Source of the DNA: an uncultured Alphaproteobacteria bacterium
GTDB lineage: Bacteria; Pseudomonadota; Alphaproteobacteria; HIMB59; GCA-002718135
Reading direction: 5' to 3'
DNA length: 64,000 nt
NCBI GenBank assembly: GCA_902621855.1
Contig: CACNNQ010000005.1
Location: 65,557-129,556 of the forward strand
Below the pieces are notes generated by a model. The model made no database searches and had not been told where the DNA came from. It saw only the letters and a program-made list of their open reading frames with translations. The translations under genes and the position numbers were made by a program. Each line of letters opens with the position of its first letter. Position 1 is the first letter of the stretch. Shown here piece by piece: positions 1,911-35,759 of this stretch.

Positions 1911-1945
1911 ATTAACATATTTTTAAAAAAAATTATTTATTCTCC

Positions 1946-1973
1946 TCTAGTTTTATTCTAGAATTTTTTTTAA
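1946..1973 (+). terminator. Weak hairpin with T-tract after lldD
   Basis: A 5-bp stem (TCTAG at 1946-1950, CTAGA at 1958-1962) with a 7-base loop is followed by eight T residues. It sits between lldD and the small Rieske-like gene, whose ATG comes two bases after the T-tract. The stem is short, so termination is probably partial if it works at all. Confidence 0.3.
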
Positions 1974-2294
1974 ATGAATGAAGATATAGAACCTATTCTA
2001 ATTGGAGACGTGGATGATTTAGAAATTGGATCAGTTGAAAATTTTGAACATGAAGAAATCAACTATGCAATTTTTAGAATTGAGTCAGGTTTCTTTGCAA
2101 CACAGGGTAACTGTAACTGTGGAGAAAGATCACTTTTAAGTGAGGCAGATGTAGATGGTGAAGAACTTGAATGTCCAAGTTGTGGAAACACTTTTAGCAT
2201 AGTATCAGGTGATTCAATTTCAGATTTAGATCAAGCACCTCTTAAAATTTTTGATGTTACAGAAGAAGACAATCAAATTTTTTTAAATATCTAG
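1974..2294 (+). CDS. Rieske-fold small protein with four Cys in place of Cys2His2
   Basis: This 106-residue protein aligns by eye along its length with the Rieske ferredoxin at 24200 (FFATQGNC... versus FYATDGIC...). The canonical C-x-H and C-x2-H pairs are here C47-x-C49 (CNC) and C67-x2-C70 (CPSC), so both cluster histidines are replaced by cysteine. The codons are TGT at all four positions. The site could hold an all-Cys [2Fe-2S] cluster, a mononuclear iron or a zinc; sequence cannot decide. No signal peptide is seen, so it is cytoplasmic. It starts right after a T-tract with no clear Shine-Dalgarno. It lies between lldD and iolD in the same orientation, and its partner is unknown. Confidence 0.7.
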   Translation: MNEDIEPILIGDVDDLEIGSVENFEHEEINYAIFRIESGFFATQGNCNCGERSLLSEADVDGEELECPSCGNTFSIVSGDSISDLDQAPLKIFDVTEEDNQIFLNI

Positions 2295-22882: not shown

Positions 22883-24127
22883 ATGAAAAATGAGCATAAA
22901 AATATTTTAATAATTGGTGGAGGACAAGCCTCAGCTTATGCGTCACAAGAAATTAGAAAACACGACTCTAAATCAACAGTGACAATAGTTACAGAAGAGA
23001 AATTTCTACCCTATGAAAGACCACCTTTATCGAAAAACTGTTTAGTAGATAAGAGAAAATATGAAGACTGTTTGTTTTTTTCAGAAAAATTTTATGATGA
23101 AAATAATATTGAAGTTAAAAAAAATATTCATATTAATAATATTGATTTCAATAAAAAAATTATAACAGGTAATTCAAATTGCAAACTATCTTATGATAAA
23201 CTATTAATTGCTACTGGATCAAAAAATCGAGAGTTAGAATTTGAGAATAATGATTTAAAAAATGAAGAAAATATTTTGTACCTCCGAAATATTGACGATA
23301 GTAAAAAAATTAATCTTAAAATAAAAGAATGTAACAATCCAGTTATTATAGGATGTGGATTTATTGGTTTAGAAATTGCAGCTTCAATTTCTCAATTTGA
23401 AAAAAAAGTGACTTTAATTGAAAAATCTTCTCAACTAATGGGAAGAGTCATTCCTGAAGAAATTTCTAAGCTAGTTAAATTAAAACATGAGCAAGAGGGG
23501 AATATCTTTTTTCTAAATTCAAACATAAAAAAAATAGAAAAAGAAAATAAAGAATTTGTGATTACTTTAGACTTCAACAAAGAAATTAAAACTGATTTAA
23601 TAATAATTGGTGTAGGATCTATCCCAAATACATCTGTATTTGAAAACTCTGAATTAATAATTGAAAATGGAATTAAGGTTAACGAATTCTGTCAATCATC
23701 GATAGAAGATGTATTTGCAGCAGGTGATGTAGCAAATTTTTATCATCCACACTATGGTAAATATATGAGACTTGAATCTTATAAACATGCTCAAAATCAC
23801 GGTATTTTTGCTGCTAAAAATATTTGTGGCTTAAAAGAATCTTACGTAGATATTCCTTGGATGTGGTCTGATCAATTTGACCTAAATTTACAACTATCTG
23901 GAGTATGTGACGATTATGACGACATGGTTTCAAGAGGTAAAGATATTAGAGAGGGTATTATCTATTTTTTCCTTAAAAAAAATATAATTCATGGCGCCTG
24001 TGGACTAGCAATTGGTGGTAAAGTTGCAAAAAATATAAGGTTAGCAAGTAAATTATCTGAAAAAAAAATTAAAATATCTAAAGAAATTTTATCTGATACA
24101 TCCACAAAACTTAATAAATACCTATAA
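22883..24127 (+). CDS. FAD-dependent ferredoxin reductase
   Basis: This 414-residue flavoprotein is of the rubredoxin/ferredoxin reductase type (Pyr_redox_2). The FAD motif IIGGGQASA starts at about residue 9, ERPPLSK is the usual segment near 47, the NAD(P) motif VIIGCGFIGLEIA is near 155, and DVFAAGDVA closes the FAD site near 285. It would pass NAD(P)H electrons to a small ferredoxin; a Rieske ferredoxin gene lies 72 bases downstream in the same direction. Likely end users are oxygenases or desaturases such as those at 26266-28287 (inference). Confidence 0.84.
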   Translation: MKNEHKNILIIGGGQASAYASQEIRKHDSKSTVTIVTEEKFLPYERPPLSKNCLVDKRKYEDCLFFSEKFYDENNIEVKKNIHINNIDFNKKIITGNSNCKLSYDKLLIATGSKNRELEFENNDLKNEENILYLRNIDDSKKINLKIKECNNPVIIGCGFIGLEIAASISQFEKKVTLIEKSSQLMGRVIPEEISKLVKLKHEQEGNIFFLNSNIKKIEKENKEFVITLDFNKEIKTDLIIIGVGSIPNTSVFENSELIIENGIKVNEFCQSSIEDVFAAGDVANFYHPHYGKYMRLESYKHAQNHGIFAAKNICGLKESYVDIPWMWSDQFDLNLQLSGVCDDYDDMVSRGKDIREGIIYFFLKKNIIHGACGLAIGGKVAKNIRLASKLSEKKIKISKEILSDTSTKLNKYL

Positions 24128-24199
24128 ATTTGCTATTTTTTGATAAAAAAATACATAAAAACGTTTTAATTAAAATAATTTTAACTATTTATTACATAT

Positions 24200-24514
24200 A
24201 TGTCTGATGATTGGAAGTTAGTTTGCAAGGTAGAAGATATTGAAATGGAAGATCTTATTAGATTCGACCATGATGATAAAACCTTTTGTGTATATAGATT
24301 AGAAGATGGATTTTATGCAACAGATGGTATTTGTACTCACGAAGCTGTTCATCTTGAAGAAGGATTAGTCATGGACAGTGAAATAGAATGTCCAATGCAT
24401 CAGGGTATTTTCGATATTAAATCAGGCAAAGCTGTAAGTCCACCCGCTTGTGATGATTTGAAGACTTATCCTGTTAAAGTCGAAAATGAAGAAGTTTATA
24501 TAAACATTAATTAA
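24200..24514 (+). CDS. Rieske [2Fe-2S] ferredoxin
   Basis: This 104-residue protein has the complete Rieske pattern: C45-x-H47 (CTH) and C64-x2-H67 (CPMH). It resembles BphF/NirD-type small electron carriers. It lies directly after the FAD reductase, so the two form a likely NADH-reductase-ferredoxin chain for an oxygenase. Its last 8 bases overlap the convergent PanB-like gene. Compare the Cys4 variant at 1974, similar in length and sequence outside the ligands. Confidence 0.86.
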   Translation: MSDDWKLVCKVEDIEMEDLIRFDHDDKTFCVYRLEDGFYATDGICTHEAVHLEEGLVMDSEIECPMHQGIFDIKSGKAVSPPACDDLKTYPVKVENEEVYININ

Positions 24515-25337
24515 TTTTTTCAGCTAACTCTAAAAACTTATCATATTCTTCGTCGTCAATTCCAACAGTTATCTTTGGATCGTTAAAATTTTTATTTATA
24601 GTATCTTCATGAAACTCTTTAAATGCCGCTACTCTTTCACGTTGTAGTTTTTCATATTCGGCTTTAAAATCTCTATACACTCTTGCATGACGAGGAATAT
24701 GACCTTCTGTCCATCCTAAAACGTCATTAGAAAAAAGAAATTGCGCGTCACAATCTGAACCACTACCCATGGACATTATTATAATTTCAGTTTTTTTTGT
24801 GACTACTGCGGCTACTTTAGGAGGTACAACTTCGAATTCAACACCTACAACACCTGCCTCTTGAAGTGCTAAAGTCCATTTTAGTACATCAACTGCTTCT
24901 TCTGCGGTCTTACCAATAGCTCTATAACCACCTATCCAAGTTGCTTTTCCTGGAATTAACCCACAATGACCTATTGTTGGTATATTTTCACGGCGCATAG
25001 CTTTTATAAACTGTAAGCTATGATTACCAACATAAACACAATCAACACCATAAGACATATATTCAAGACCTTCTTTGATTGCCTCATATTCGGACGCTGG
25101 TCTCGATGATCCACCAGATTGCATATAGCAACTAGGCGCTGCTTCTCTTATTCTTTTCACTTCATCTAATGTTGCGTTTATACCAAAGCTTGGAACATCA
25201 TGAGCTGCAACAATAAAGTCTATTCCTGCTTCTTCTGCTGCTGCGGCTTCTTCTTTATTATGTACGAACAGATTACTTAATTGTCTTTTACCTTTACAAG
25301 CTAAATAATCATAGGTAGTTAATTTTTTTCTCTTCAT
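24507..25337 (-). CDS. PanB-like protein (ketopantoate hydroxymethyltransferase family), diverged active site
   Basis: This 276-residue protein has PanB-fold landmarks: LTTYDYLACKG at the start, IGHCGLIPG and IGGYRAIGKT (about 122-143), ALQEAGVVGVEFEVVP (E169 at the place of the catalytic Glu) and GSGSDCDAQFLFSNDVLG. The usual metal-binding VADLPF segment is replaced by SCYMQSGG (69-76), and the VKLEGG lysine/glutamate segment by VYVGNHS. By-eye alignment therefore suggests a different substrate from ketopantoate. It is the downstream member of a minus-strand pair with the IolI-like gene, 41 bases apart with an AGGAGG site between. Confidence 0.65.
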   Translation of the reverse strand: MKRKKLTTYDYLACKGKRQLSNLFVHNKEEAAAAEEAGIDFIVAAHDVPSFGINATLDEVKRIREAAPSCYMQSGGSSRPASEYEAIKEGLEYMSYGVDCVYVGNHSLQFIKAMRRENIPTIGHCGLIPGKATWIGGYRAIGKTAEEAVDVLKWTLALQEAGVVGVEFEVVPPKVAAVVTKKTEIIIMSMGSGSDCDAQFLFSNDVLGWTEGHIPRHARVYRDFKAEYEKLQRERVAAFKEFHEDTINKNFNDPKITVGIDDEEYDKFLELAEKIN

Positions 25338-25378
25338 TTAGCCTCCTCCATTGAATGTATTTATAAATTATATTTTCA

Positions 25379-26188
25379 TTATTTTGGTAAATTAGACAAG
25401 ATAAAATCGAATGTTTTTTGAGTTAAATTGAACTTATCCACGTTATTTATAAATTTCTCAGAAAATGGCTCAAAGGAAAAAAACTCATTGTATCCATTAG
25501 TAAGAAATTTCTCTATTTGATTGATATTTTCAATTAAATCATTTTTTTCTATCATCGTTCTATAATCATCAGTGAGTTCACTTTTTCTATAATAATCAGA
25601 AACCCCAGAAATGTGAACTAGTCCGGTTTTATCAAAGTAAAAATTGTTTTCACCTGCTAGTTTATGATGAAAAGTATCATGTAACAATTTAATGTTTGTT
25701 GATTTAATTTCTTCTATTACTTTAATTGCAATAGATTTTTTTCTTAAAGTTGATTGAGTAAAGCCTAAGGGTTCTACAAGACCCATTATATTAAAATCAT
25801 TAAGTATTACCGAAATATTTTTTAAGGATGACCTTAACAAGTTGATTTGATCTTCTTCTTTTGGAAAAGATCCATCGTTTAATGGAACTAAAACAACTGC
25901 CCAAATACTAGCTTTATTTGCAAAAGAACATAATTCAATTAGTTCATTTTTCCTTTGCTCATTCCATATGTTAAATTTTTGCAGAGCATTTATAGTTAAT
26001 ATTTTGATTGAATGATTATCACAAATATCTTTTATTTTTTGCGGCTCATTCTCTTTTACTAAATTTGTTTTTATATCATTACGTATTTCAATATTCTGGA
26101 TATTTAATTTTTTTGTAAATGTAATAAATTCATCAAATGATGAATTTTTCATTACAATTTGATTTATTGATAGATTTCCTAAATTCAT
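25379..26188 (-). CDS. IolI-like sugar isomerase (AP endonuclease 2 TIM barrel)
   Basis: This 269-residue TIM barrel resembles inosose isomerase IolI and hydroxypyruvate isomerases. NIEIRND, ITINALQKFN-type text (LTINALQKFN) and VLVPLNDG align with IolI. Likely metal ligands are the Glu in LVEPLG, Asp/His in LLHDTFHH, His in VHISGVSD and Glu in FFSFEPF. It would interconvert keto-sugars or inososes. It is followed by the PanB-like gene, and this pairing is unusual. Divergence is high, so the substrate is open. Confidence 0.65.
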   Translation of the reverse strand: MNLGNLSINQIVMKNSSFDEFITFTKKLNIQNIEIRNDIKTNLVKENEPQKIKDICDNHSIKILTINALQKFNIWNEQRKNELIELCSFANKASIWAVVLVPLNDGSFPKEEDQINLLRSSLKNISVILNDFNIMGLVEPLGFTQSTLRKKSIAIKVIEEIKSTNIKLLHDTFHHKLAGENNFYFDKTGLVHISGVSDYYRKSELTDDYRTMIEKNDLIENINQIEKFLTNGYNEFFSFEPFSEKFINNVDKFNLTQKTFDFILSNLPK

Positions 26189-26265
26189 AAGTAGTTAATA
26201 ATATCATTTTTTTATTAATGACTAGCTTATATTTGATTATTTGGAGTTTTTTATTTGATAATTAA

Positions 26266-27279
26266 TTAAGTTGTAGATCTCATTTTTTTTGACCTAAGCT
26301 TATATCTTGCCATCATTTTTTCTTGTGCCTCTTCTGAACCATTATGAAATGTACCAAATAATTTATCTAATGGAATAGCACCATCTGCATAATTACATTC
26401 AAAATATTTATGGTGCAAATAATGAGCATGACTATGTGTATCTATTTTGGTCTTACCAATTACAATTGAATCAAAACCAATATGACCATGGAACAAAGGC
26501 CCTATCGCTGCATGAAGAAGTTGAAATACTGCATGCACTGGATGTGCTGGAATTATAAAATGAATTAATGTTCCAGTAAAATATAGTACATGTTCAAACC
26601 AATGCATTGATAATCCAGACCATGGTCCAGGATTTACATTCTTATGATGAACATGGTGACAAAAATTGTATAATAGTGGAGTGTGAAGAAGTCTGTGAAC
26701 AAAGTAAAAGTGGACTTCCCTAAAAAGTGGAATTATTAGAAAAGTCAAACCAAGGTAGATTGGATGATCAATCCATTCTAGGCCAATAAAGTAACCATTA
26801 GCAAAGGCCCACAAAGAAAATACTTCGAATGCTGTCCATATTGGAACTCCGCTGCACAAGGTCCAAAAAATATTATCTTTAGTTTGATCTCTAAAAAAGA
26901 AATTTTTATTATTTTTAGACATCGGGCTTGGATTAAATTTAAACGCATCACCCTGAGTTTTTTTTATATATAACAAGAAATGTAGCGCTGTCCCACAAAT
27001 AAGCATAATAATTAAATTTCTAATTAATAGATAAGAGATCCAGCCAAGCTGAAAAGTTTTCATCGTCTCTAGTGATGGAGTAAAATACACCCAAAGAAGA
27101 ACAGCTATTGATCCATAGAAAAATGTCCATGGGAAGATATAGCCAGGTATTCCTAACAACCATTTTAAGTTTTTGGTTATGCTAAATGGCCAGTCAAAAA
27201 AGGGAATATTTGATGATAATTTAAATGGTTTCCAGTGTCCACGTTTGTCTCTACTTCCGTATTGACTATCGTCGATCAT
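26266..27279 (-). CDS. Membrane fatty acid hydroxylase / sterol desaturase superfamily protein
   Basis: This 337-residue polytopic protein has the histidine-rich di-iron set of the FA_hydroxylase family: HRLLH, HHVHH a few residues later, HWFEH, then HSHAHYLHH near the C-terminus. These enzymes use O2 and reduced ferredoxin or cytochrome b5 to hydroxylate or desaturate lipids or carotenoid-like molecules in the membrane. It is the second gene of a minus-strand pair, starting three bases after the desaturase stop. The nearby Rieske ferredoxin and reductase could supply electrons. The substrate is unknown. Confidence 0.8.
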   Translation of the reverse strand: MIDDSQYGSRDKRGHWKPFKLSSNIPFFDWPFSITKNLKWLLGIPGYIFPWTFFYGSIAVLLWVYFTPSLETMKTFQLGWISYLLIRNLIIMLICGTALHFLLYIKKTQGDAFKFNPSPMSKNNKNFFFRDQTKDNIFWTLCSGVPIWTAFEVFSLWAFANGYFIGLEWIDHPIYLGLTFLIIPLFREVHFYFVHRLLHTPLLYNFCHHVHHKNVNPGPWSGLSMHWFEHVLYFTGTLIHFIIPAHPVHAVFQLLHAAIGPLFHGHIGFDSIVIGKTKIDTHSHAHYLHHKYFECNYADGAIPLDKLFGTFHNGSEEAQEKMMARYKLRSKKMRSTT

Positions 27280-27282
27280 TTT

Positions 27283-28287
27283 TTATGCCGGTAGTTCTCT
27301 TGGTAAATGATATGCTGGATCTTTTGCTTGTTTAAGAATTGCTGGAATCATAACCTTCATACCATCATAGAAGCTTGTATTAGGTTGAGGACACTGATCC
27401 TTAATATGTTCATGTAGTTTTGGCAGGTTATAAAATGGAACTTGAGGAAAAATATGATGTTCAATATGATAGTTCATGTTTGCATATAAACACCAGCCAA
27501 GAAAACCATTTAGATAAACAGTTCTAGTACTTTCTCTGTGATCCCATGTATCAGCTTTAAGCCCACCATGTTGAAGCATTGCTACAAATTGAAATAAAGT
27601 TCCACCATATATTAGTGGCGTAATGAAAATCATTAGAGGTAGGAAGCTTTGTATTGAAATTGCCCATGCTATAATTGCTATTTTGAGAGCCATATATAAT
27701 CGCGAATTCCATATGACTTTCCATCTTTCGTTTTCTGGAACACAATCTTTCATGAGTGGAGTTTCAATACCAAGTGAATGTTGAAATACTTTTTTAAATT
27801 CTGCCCATACTCTATCAACAGCAAATGCATCTCTGAAAAATAAATTCCATAAGTTAGCAGGTCTTGAAACTTGAATTTCATAGTCAACATCTACATGAAT
27901 TGTTCTACTGTGATGGTGCGTATGACTCCATCTCCAAGAGTGTGATTCAAAGTAATCTAAGAAACTACAAATTTCATAGAATAAATCGTTTAACCATCTA
28001 GTTTTAAAAGCAGATCTATGACCAAACTCGTGCCATCTGGCATTTAAAAATGAATATATATTGCCGTATACAAGAAAGGCAGGAATTGCCCACCATGTGC
28101 CCCAAGAATACCAGGCTACGATACCACTCAATATTAGGACTCCAAAAAAACAAATAGTATTAATCCATGCTGGAAGATCTCTTCGTTGCATTAATTCTTT
28201 TAAAATTTTTTTATCTATATTCGGCCTATACCAATTGGGCATTTGATCTTGTTGATTTTCAATAGATTTATAAGCAAATTTAACCAT
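27283..28287 (-). CDS. Membrane fatty acid desaturase 1
   Basis: This 334-residue desaturase has three histidine boxes: HEFGH (86-90), HTHHH (122-126) and HIEHH (273-277), with hydrophobic segments between. It inserts a double bond (or a hydroxyl) into a lipid acyl chain at a di-iron centre. It closely resembles the gene at 34776 in the order of boxes and the NWYRP-type N-terminus, so the two are paralogues. It heads an operon with the membrane hydroxylase and is divergent from ABC operon 3. Confidence 0.85.
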   Translation of the reverse strand: MVKFAYKSIENQQDQMPNWYRPNIDKKILKELMQRRDLPAWINTICFFGVLILSGIVAWYSWGTWWAIPAFLVYGNIYSFLNARWHEFGHRSAFKTRWLNDLFYEICSFLDYFESHSWRWSHTHHHSRTIHVDVDYEIQVSRPANLWNLFFRDAFAVDRVWAEFKKVFQHSLGIETPLMKDCVPENERWKVIWNSRLYMALKIAIIAWAISIQSFLPLMIFITPLIYGGTLFQFVAMLQHGGLKADTWDHRESTRTVYLNGFLGWCLYANMNYHIEHHIFPQVPFYNLPKLHEHIKDQCPQPNTSFYDGMKVMIPAILKQAKDPAYHLPRELPA

Positions 28288-33337: not shown

Positions 33338-33970
33338 ATGACAGTTAAATGGCATATTATAGGTAAGCAATTTGGTAATTGTAATTGTGATTATGGTTGT
33401 CCATGTCAATTTAATGCCCCACCTACATATAAGTATTGCCATGGTATGGGTGCTTTCAAAATTGAAAAAGGATTTTTTGCTGACATAGATATGGCTGGAG
33501 TAAATGCTGTTTTTATGGGGAAATGGCCTGGTCCTATTCATGAAGGTAATGGAGAAATGCAAATAATATTAGACTCAAAGTCTTCACAAGAACAGCAAGA
33601 CGCTATTAAAAGCATAATGTATGGAGAACACACTGAACCAATGGCTACAGCTTTTTACATGTATCATTCTATGATGTCCAAAATACATGAGCCTTTGATT
33701 AAAGATATCAAAATTACCGTCGATATTGTTGCAAGAAAATGTTCTTTAATAGCCGAAGATATAATAATTACTAATGTAGAGCCCATTAAAAATCCAGTAT
33801 CAAAAGAAGAATTAAAAGCAAAAATTGTTTTACCAGATGGTATCGAATTCAAGGAGTCAGAAATGGCCTCCGGCACAACAAAAGCTTTTGGTGCTTTTGA
33901 GTCAATTTTTAATAACTCATTTTCCAGTATATCCGAATTAAATGTTACAAATAAAGGTATACCTTCTTGA
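33338..33970 (+). CDS. DUF1326-domain protein
   Basis: This 210-residue protein has the cysteine cluster CNCDYGCPCQF at about 16-26, then HGMGAF and the repeated beta-strand pattern of DUF1326. The function is not established; the Cys cluster suggests metal binding. Its stop overlaps the TTG start of the DUF2182 membrane protein, and this pairing recurs in proteobacteria (established co-occurrence). It follows importer operon 3 by 40 bases and could be co-transcribed. Confidence 0.78.
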   Translation: MTVKWHIIGKQFGNCNCDYGCPCQFNAPPTYKYCHGMGAFKIEKGFFADIDMAGVNAVFMGKWPGPIHEGNGEMQIILDSKSSQEQQDAIKSIMYGEHTEPMATAFYMYHSMMSKIHEPLIKDIKITVDIVARKCSLIAEDIIITNVEPIKNPVSKEELKAKIVLPDGIEFKESEMASGTTKAFGAFESIFNNSFSSISELNVTNKGIPS

Positions 33971-34779
33971 TATTTAATGCAGTAAATTTTAAAAACATTA
34001 ACTTTCTTACAACTCTTTTCCTTATATCGATAATTGTAATAAGTTGGGTCTATACAATCTTTGGTATTGGAATGGATATGTCTGCATGGAAAATGACATT
34101 AATGGAATACAATCAAGTTTTTGTTTCAGATAACAAAACCACTATGAAAGATATGAAAACTTATACTTTCTCAAACCAATATTTTATTTCTCTTTTTTTT
34201 ATGTGGACTTTTATGATGATTGCAATGATGTTACCTACAGCCTATCCTGTTTTTGTGATGTACAATAAAATTTATAAAGAAAGAAAAGAAAATAAGTTTA
34301 ATTTATTAAATCCAATTTTTTTTATTACTATGTATATGTTAGTTTGGTCATTTTTTAGCTTTTTAGCAACTTTATTACAAATTATTCTTTTGGAGTATAA
34401 TAGTTTTAATTTATCAAATTTTAAAACAACAAATACAATTTCATCTACACTTTTTATATTTATTGGTATCTATCAATTGACCCCTTTAAAAAATTTTTGT
34501 CTTTATTATTGTCGAAATCCAATAGAAATTTTATCCAAACTAAATTTTAATAATCTTTCTAGTCAATTTACAGTAAGTTATCAGCATGCTCTATTTTGTC
34601 TTGGATGTTGTTGGGCTTTGATGCTAATTTTATTTTCAGTAGGAGTTATGAATTTATTATGGATTTCAATAATTGCTATATACGTATTTTTTGAAAAAAA
34701 TGTTTTTAGGAATAAGGAATTCGATATTTTGGTAGGTTTGTTATTAATTATGTTTGGGATTTATGGCCTAGTTTCCTAG
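33967..34779 (+). CDS. DUF2182 predicted metal-binding membrane protein
   Basis: This protein of about 270 residues has several transmembrane helices and the DUF2182 signatures MMIAMMLPTAYPV (about 80-92) and HALFCLGCCWALM (about 207-219). The methionine and cysteine motifs in membrane helices suggest a copper or other metal role, as the family is annotated. It starts with TTG overlapping the DUF1326 stop, and ends overlapping the convergent desaturase by 4 bases. Confidence 0.78.
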   Translation: MIFNAVNFKNINFLTTLFLISIIVISWVYTIFGIGMDMSAWKMTLMEYNQVFVSDNKTTMKDMKTYTFSNQYFISLFFMWTFMMIAMMLPTAYPVFVMYNKIYKERKENKFNLLNPIFFITMYMLVWSFFSFLATLLQIILLEYNSFNLSNFKTTNTISSTLFIFIGIYQLTPLKNFCLYYCRNPIEILSKLNFNNLSSQFTVSYQHALFCLGCCWALMLILFSVGVMNLLWISIIAIYVFFEKNVFRNKEFDILVGLLLIMFGIYGLVS

Positions 34780-35759
34780 TTTTGAGGTATGTTTGTTTTA
34801 TAATACGCTTCTGGATTTGTTGCTTGTTTTATTACAGTTGGCATTACATTCCAGTAAAAACTAAAAAGGCTTGGGAATGGTTTTGGAATTTGATCTTTAA
34901 TAAGGTGATTTAATTTTTTTAAGTTATAAGATGGGATAGTTGGAAACATATGATGTTCTAAATGGTATTGCATGTCCCAATATAAAAAGGCAAAGATAGG
35001 ATTAATTTTAACCGAGTATGTGCTCTCTCTATGATCTTTTTTATCAAATGGAGCACCTAAATGTTGAGTTACATTTACAAAAAATTGTATAGGTTTTCCA
35101 TAATAGTTTGGCAAAAGAATATATATTACTGGAAGAATTGAACCAATCCAGAATGAATAAGCTATAATAACTAACCACAAGAAAACATAAAATCTCGAAT
35201 TCCAGACAATTTTATTTTTTTCTGAATCAGGAGCAGTAATTGCAATAACAGGTGAAAACTTTCTAAACGAATGTTTAATTATTTCATATTTTAGAAGTTT
35301 GTGAGGGAATAATAGGTCTGCAAAAGGAATAAAATTTAAGAAAAATGCAAGCAGCTCTGTTGGTCTTGTAATTTGAATTTCATGATCATAGTCGTCTTTA
35401 GTTTGATAAGTATTTGAATGATGAAATGTGTGACTCCATCTCCATCTATATGCTTCAAAATCGCCCATAAAGCATGAAATATGGTAAACAATTTCATTAA
35501 GCCATCTCGTTTTGAAAGCAGTTCTATGCACTGTCTCATGCCAATTACTAACACTAAAGGCCCATATAGTCCCATATATAAAAAAGAAAATCAAACATAA
35601 GTAACTATCTATGAAGTAGTAAGCGAGATATCCTGATATTCCTAATGAAGTGAAATATATTATCATGTGTAAAATACCTGGAAGATCTTTTCTTTTAGCA
35701 AGATTTTTAAGGTCTTTTCTGCTAATTTCAGGTTTATACCACTCAGAATTTAAATGCAT
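34776..35759 (-). CDS. Membrane fatty acid desaturase 2
   Basis: This 327-residue desaturase has histidine boxes HETVH (74-78), HTFHH (110-114) and HLEHH near 267. It is a paralogue of the protein at 27283, sharing WYKP/WYRP at the N-terminus, RTAFKTRWLN versus RSAFKTRWLN after box 1, and KDHREST versus WDHREST before box 3. It may act on a different acyl chain or carotenoid. It is transcribed alone, divergent from the EamA exporter 39 bases away. Confidence 0.84.
   Translation of the reverse strand: MHLNSEWYKPEISRKDLKNLAKRKDLPGILHMIIYFTSLGISGYLAYYFIDSYLCLIFFFIYGTIWAFSVSNWHETVHRTAFKTRWLNEIVYHISCFMGDFEAYRWRWSHTFHHSNTYQTKDDYDHEIQITRPTELLAFFLNFIPFADLLFPHKLLKYEIIKHSFRKFSPVIAITAPDSEKNKIVWNSRFYVFLWLVIIAYSFWIGSILPVIYILLPNYYGKPIQFFVNVTQHLGAPFDKKDHRESTYSVKINPIFAFLYWDMQYHLEHHMFPTIPSYNLKKLNHLIKDQIPKPFPSLFSFYWNVMPTVIKQATNPEAYYKTNIPQN

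Follow-up and report, generated by a model that had tools for sequence, protein, structure and literature searches.

A small Rieske-fold protein in which cysteine has replaced both histidine ligands is encoded on the forward strand at positions 1974–2294 of the window, the 64,000-nucleotide stretch of alphaproteobacterial DNA analysed here (open reading frame with an ATG start, 106 residues). We calculated its fold, its all-cysteine site, the conservation of that site, and the linkage and co-occurrence of its gene with a lactate dehydrogenase gene. What we infer is the type of metal centre, the redox potential, a role as electron carrier and a partnership with the lactate dehydrogenase. Our leading and tentative explanation is that a Rieske ferredoxin, probably a MocE-type one, has turned into a low-potential carrier, with a [2Fe-2S](Cys)4 cluster, that is linked to this FMN enzyme.

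The candidate metal ligands are C47, C49, C67 and C70. Sequence and alignment A1 place the first pair on loop 1, where the Rieske C-x-H has become C-x-C (codons C47-N48-C49, 2112–2120, forward strand), and the second on loop 2, where C-x2-H has become C-x2-C (codons C67-P68-S69-C70, 2172–2183, forward strand). In the alignment, 17 residues separate C49 from C67, the same gap as in the Rieske ferredoxin BphA3, in keeping with an earlier note on this DNA that had read the spacing of a Rieske centre with both histidines replaced by cysteine. MocE-type ferredoxins have a Pro-Pro loop, which reads SPPA in the canonical paralogue encoded at 24200 and is missing here. The protein is strongly acidic, with a pI of about 4 and a computed net charge of about -23, and the strand opposite its reading frame contains many stops.

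Several comparisons agree on the fold. The Pfam Rieske profile PF00355 matches the protein with 22.2 bits, above its cut-off of 20.3, and the best PDB sequence matches are the Rieske ferredoxins of carbazole (E = 1e-9) and biphenyl (E = 7e-9) dioxygenases, with all matches down to E = 5e-4 being, without exception, dioxygenase Rieske ferredoxins. An AlphaFold2 model built from 20 orthologues (pLDDT 88) has a Rieske ferredoxin fold and superposes on the dioxygenase ferredoxins over its whole length in Foldseek (TM 0.87, rmsd 1.4) and over 101 residues in VIA-align (Z 18.0, rmsd 1.6). The structure prediction called for earlier thus upholds the proposed Rieske fold, and the likeness to the canonical ferredoxin at 24200 amounts to 34% identity. 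The protein appears to work like, and to descend from, a Rieske ferredoxin. Nevertheless, it is not classed as a Rieske [2Fe-2S] protein, because the Cys2His2 ligand set (C-x-H, C-x2-H) is replaced by C-x-C and C-x2-C in all 50 orthologues. Against the NCBIfam MocE profile TIGR02377, whose cut-off is 136.15 bits, it scores 32.0 bits and the paralogue at 24200 scores 134.8.

The gene is present in 49 of the 61 genomes of the window's genus, and 22 species-level orthologues were taken from the GTDB genome collection. Published work suggests that this genus falls within or close to the HIMB59/AEGEAN-169 group. Compared base by base across 50 orthologues (39 distinct proteins), the four cysteines are invariant, with variation at the position preceding C47 and at the two positions that separate C67 from C70; the lack of conservation that would have spoken against the earlier reading does not apply. 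Every ligand codon occurs both as TGT and as TGC, the median pairwise dN/dS is about 0.08 (pairs with unsaturated dS), and no broken copies were seen among the 50 orthologues. The gene is under strong purifying selection. Since the cysteines are invariant, dN/dS is low and the cysteine codons vary synonymously, the change of ligands is real, old and under selection; the same codon variation and dN/dS, together with 50 intact orthologues, rule out chance, sequencing error or a pseudogene.

No all-cysteine relative from outside the genus was found: in about 1,000 other proteobacterial genomes, every match that was fetched is Cys2His2. These searches with profile A1 covered samples of the Alphaproteobacteria (385 genomes), of the phylum (398) and of the class of G772 (369), and matches within the E-value limits were read, leaving room for a remote all-cysteine Rieske protein elsewhere. 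Fetched matches from the sister family consist of Cys2His2 relatives alone, viral contigs contain no relative, and plasmid matches all fall below 60% identity and are annotated as ferredoxins where a gene is listed. We found no report of a natural all-cysteine Rieske protein in the open-access literature, and within the reach of the methods used here this is a new class. In a tree of 28 sequences the all-cysteine proteins form one group on a stem of 2.48 changes per column, placed in the half where the MocE-like ferredoxins fall, the genus' own MocE included. This single origin on a long stem supports the earlier suggestion of a distinct class. The tree fits duplication and rapid change of a MocE-type ferredoxin, with the exact donor not fixed because it rests on 109 columns. 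On this scenario, a probably MocE-type Rieske ferredoxin would have gained cysteine for both histidines in the ancestor of the genus and been kept as a distinct protein.

The four cysteines on the Rieske loops would most likely hold a [2Fe-2S] cluster, which we favour because evolution retained the Rieske spacing rather than the two C-x2-C motifs of a mononuclear design. Changes in the loops may allow the cluster to assemble, and the potential of the all-cysteine centre would be lower than in its histidine-ligated relatives. In the Sulfolobus Rieske ferredoxin ARF, the single mutant H64C forms a [2Fe-2S] cluster of low potential and the single mutant H44C fails, and cluster assembly in the double mutant H44C/H64C is largely impaired (reviewed in PMC2946596). 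Because of this double mutant, a low-potential [2Fe-2S] cluster should not be taken for granted here.

The double mutant's failure to build a cluster properly (PMC2946596) also speaks for the alternative that the four cysteines bind zinc. The protein would then be a redox-inert descendant of Rieske proteins that serves the lactate dehydrogenase in structure, binding or regulation; we regard this as doubtful. Loop 2 reads C-x2-C-G, a zinc-knuckle sequence, and there are weak matches to the Pfam families Trm112p, Zn_ribbon_LysW and Zn_ribbon_8, every one below its cut-off, as is the match to the LysW carrier profile (E = 2.6e-5). Redox inertness would, moreover, explain why the protein is conserved although no redox partner is evident. 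Against zinc, the whole-length and fold likeness is to Rieske ferredoxins, and loop 1, as C-x-C in 50 of 50 orthologues, departs from the two C-x2-C knuckles of rubredoxins and zinc ribbons. Tetrathiolate zinc sites are usually built from two such knuckles, and zinc is scarce for marine surface bacteria, both of which weigh against this option. The profile cut-offs and the fold rule out a rubredoxin or zinc-ribbon relative, the family assignment that had been named as fatal to the original proposal.

A mononuclear iron site, in our judgement unlikely, would have energetic appeal. The lactate/pyruvate potential lies near -190 mV, so that electron flow from lactate to an all-cysteine [2Fe-2S] cluster could be uphill, and a potential in the rubredoxin range would fit lactate oxidation better. 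The loops of Rieske proteins and of rubredoxins and zinc ribbons are similar in geometry, and the ARF triple mutant H44I/K45C/H64C held a rubredoxin-like mononuclear iron site (PMC2946596). However, that engineered site required a shift of loop 1 to C-x2-C, and C-x-C has been kept here in every one of the 50 orthologues.

Two genes precede the all-cysteine gene on the same strand: one for an FAH-family 2,4-diketo-3-deoxy-L-fuconate/rhamnonate hydrolase (FucG/LRA6-like; 1–756, its 5′ end beyond the window; assigned through NCBIfam and PDB) and one for the proposed partner, an LldD-like FMN-dependent L-lactate dehydrogenase or alpha-hydroxyacid dehydrogenase (756–1910; Pfam FMN_dh). The FAH protein matches PDB 8gsr (E = 2e-86), and the top NCBIfam match of an orthologue is 2,4-didehydro-3-deoxy-L-rhamnonate hydrolase (E = 3e-115, below cut-off); the best NCBIfam match of the dehydrogenase orthologue in locus L003 is L-lactate dehydrogenase. 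All loci of sufficient reach have the order SDR, FAH hydrolase, FMN lactate dehydrogenase, all-cysteine gene, the final pair being separated by 42 to 63 bp. An L-fuconate-dehydratase-like gene lies 5′ of the SDR gene in most relatives (PDB 2hne, E = 2e-139), and the genome of the window has a homologue on another contig (51% identity). The SDR-FAH set reads as the end of a non-phosphorylating L-fucose/L-rhamnose route to pyruvate and L-lactate, the products of the FucC-FucF-FucG route for L-fucose (PMC11199699), and the FMN enzyme would then oxidize the resulting L-lactate.

The all-cysteine and lactate dehydrogenase genes stand side by side in all 49 genomes of the genus that have the former, and both are missing from the remaining 12; given that the two are neighbours and the genomes incomplete, these joint absences may partly reflect missing contigs. 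The earlier note had linked the protein to adjacent lactate and inositol enzymes, of which the lactate enzyme stands. The inositol link is accidental and not conserved, and iolD is a separate unit, since in most relatives a convergent D-2-hydroxyacid-dehydrogenase-like gene intervenes between the all-cysteine gene and iolD on its 3′ side. One single-cell genome has a frameshift that breaks the lactate dehydrogenase gene in two and could be an assembly error (L008 4802-5957; L132, G001:C10), and the all-cysteine gene beside the broken gene is intact.

On our preferred reading of a [2Fe-2S] carrier, the protein would be soluble and very acidic and would carry one electron at a time, linked to the FMN L-lactate dehydrogenase encoded upstream and serving the last steps of L-fucose/L-rhamnose breakdown. 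Its size, predicted fold and very acidic surface suit a soluble carrier, and the obvious first choice of partner is the lactate dehydrogenase. Counting against a dedicated partner, orthologues of the dehydrogenase in the sister family work without the all-cysteine protein (23 genomes with the former, none with the latter). At the 29 fetched loci, those of the window's genus apart, a look-up against the window's proteins found no Rieske-like gene beside the lactate dehydrogenase orthologues.

A promoter-like block, TTTATT-N17-TAGAAT (1936–1964, forward strand), ends 9 nt 5′ of the start codon. All 50 orthologues have TTTATT, N17 and TANAAW upstream of the start, 3–10 bases from the ATG, with the conserved columns flanking a variable 17-nt spacer. 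A sigma-70 consensus scan did not detect the block, because of the very high AT content of the region and because TTTATT makes a poor -35 element. The block is suggestive of a nearly leaderless mRNA, and by implying possible transcription of the gene independently of the operon it counts against an operon-tied function. An inverted repeat just 5′ of the start codon (TCTAG/CTAGA) was considered as a terminator and dropped, as relatives lack it.

Such a promoter of its own would also be expected if the protein served another enzyme, for example by taking electrons from the ferredoxin reductase encoded at 22883–24127, and if its place beside the lactate dehydrogenase gene were operon history. Although the window encodes both this MocF-like reductase and a MocE ferredoxin, we consider such a role improbable, since the all-cysteine gene and that of the lactate dehydrogenase occur together without exception in the genus, even with the joint absences weakened by incomplete assemblies and adjacency. 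Decay into a Rieske protein without a metal site, to which the loss of both histidines and of the MocE-type Pro-Pro loop might point, is scarcely credible and is refuted by the conservation described above (four invariant cysteines, low dN/dS, no broken copies seen).

Other genes of the window and its genome were noted alongside. The MocF-like reductase is followed by the MocE-like Rieske ferredoxin (24200–24514), and sterol-desaturase-like and fatty-acid-desaturase-like proteins are encoded on the opposite strand of the same region (22883–28287), which looks like a MocDEF-type oxygenase system. A second desaturase lies at 34776–35759. Elsewhere in the genome (L087, G000:C7 near 8361) lies a gene for a third Rieske-like protein, also small at about 98 residues, with C-P-H and C-H-W-H. 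At 33338–34779, a 210-residue protein with a cysteine-rich start, GNCNCDYGCPCQF, is followed by a membrane protein, which we take to resemble a DUF1326/DUF2182 pair.

Histidine ligands define Rieske centres, and a natural, conserved all-cysteine version on the same loops makes it possible to ask how much of cluster type and potential is set by the ligands and how much by the fold. It lets one ask how evolution solved the assembly problem left by the engineered double mutant, and it may bring to light a hitherto unrecognised redox partner for lactate oxidation in bacteria that abound in the ocean. The boldest form of the proposal, a functional natural all-cysteine [2Fe-2S] Rieske-fold protein, confined to one marine genus, that serves a flavin L-lactate dehydrogenase as its dedicated electron acceptor, probably does not hold in full; if true, it would add a new ligand class to the Rieske proteins and mean a new coupling of alpha-hydroxyacid oxidation.

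Among known systems, the dioxygenase Rieske ferredoxins (CarAc, 1vck; BphA3, 2e4p/1fqt; MocE, TIGR02377) share with the all-cysteine protein their length, loop positions and spacing, acidity and fold (TM 0.87, Z 17–18); it differs from them in having cysteine for both histidines, in the loss of SPPA, in a gene set without an oxygenase and in its MocE score (32 against 136 bits). The locus resembles that of the FucC-FucF-FucG pathway in the order fuconate dehydratase, SDR, FAH hydrolase seen in most relatives, to which it adds the FMN lactate dehydrogenase and the all-cysteine protein. Rubredoxin and zinc ribbons likewise present four cysteines on two loops of similar geometry, with C-x2-C-G as in loop 2, whereas the all-cysteine protein has the Rieske fold and length, C-x-C in loop 1 and scores below the cut-offs of their profiles. 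A further precedent is provided by the ARF mutants, which share the Rieske scaffold: the mononuclear design H44I/K45C/H64C departs in loop 1 spacing, and H44C/H64C has the very ligand set and spacing seen here. That double mutant was, however, man-made and assembled poorly, whereas the all-cysteine protein is natural and conserved.
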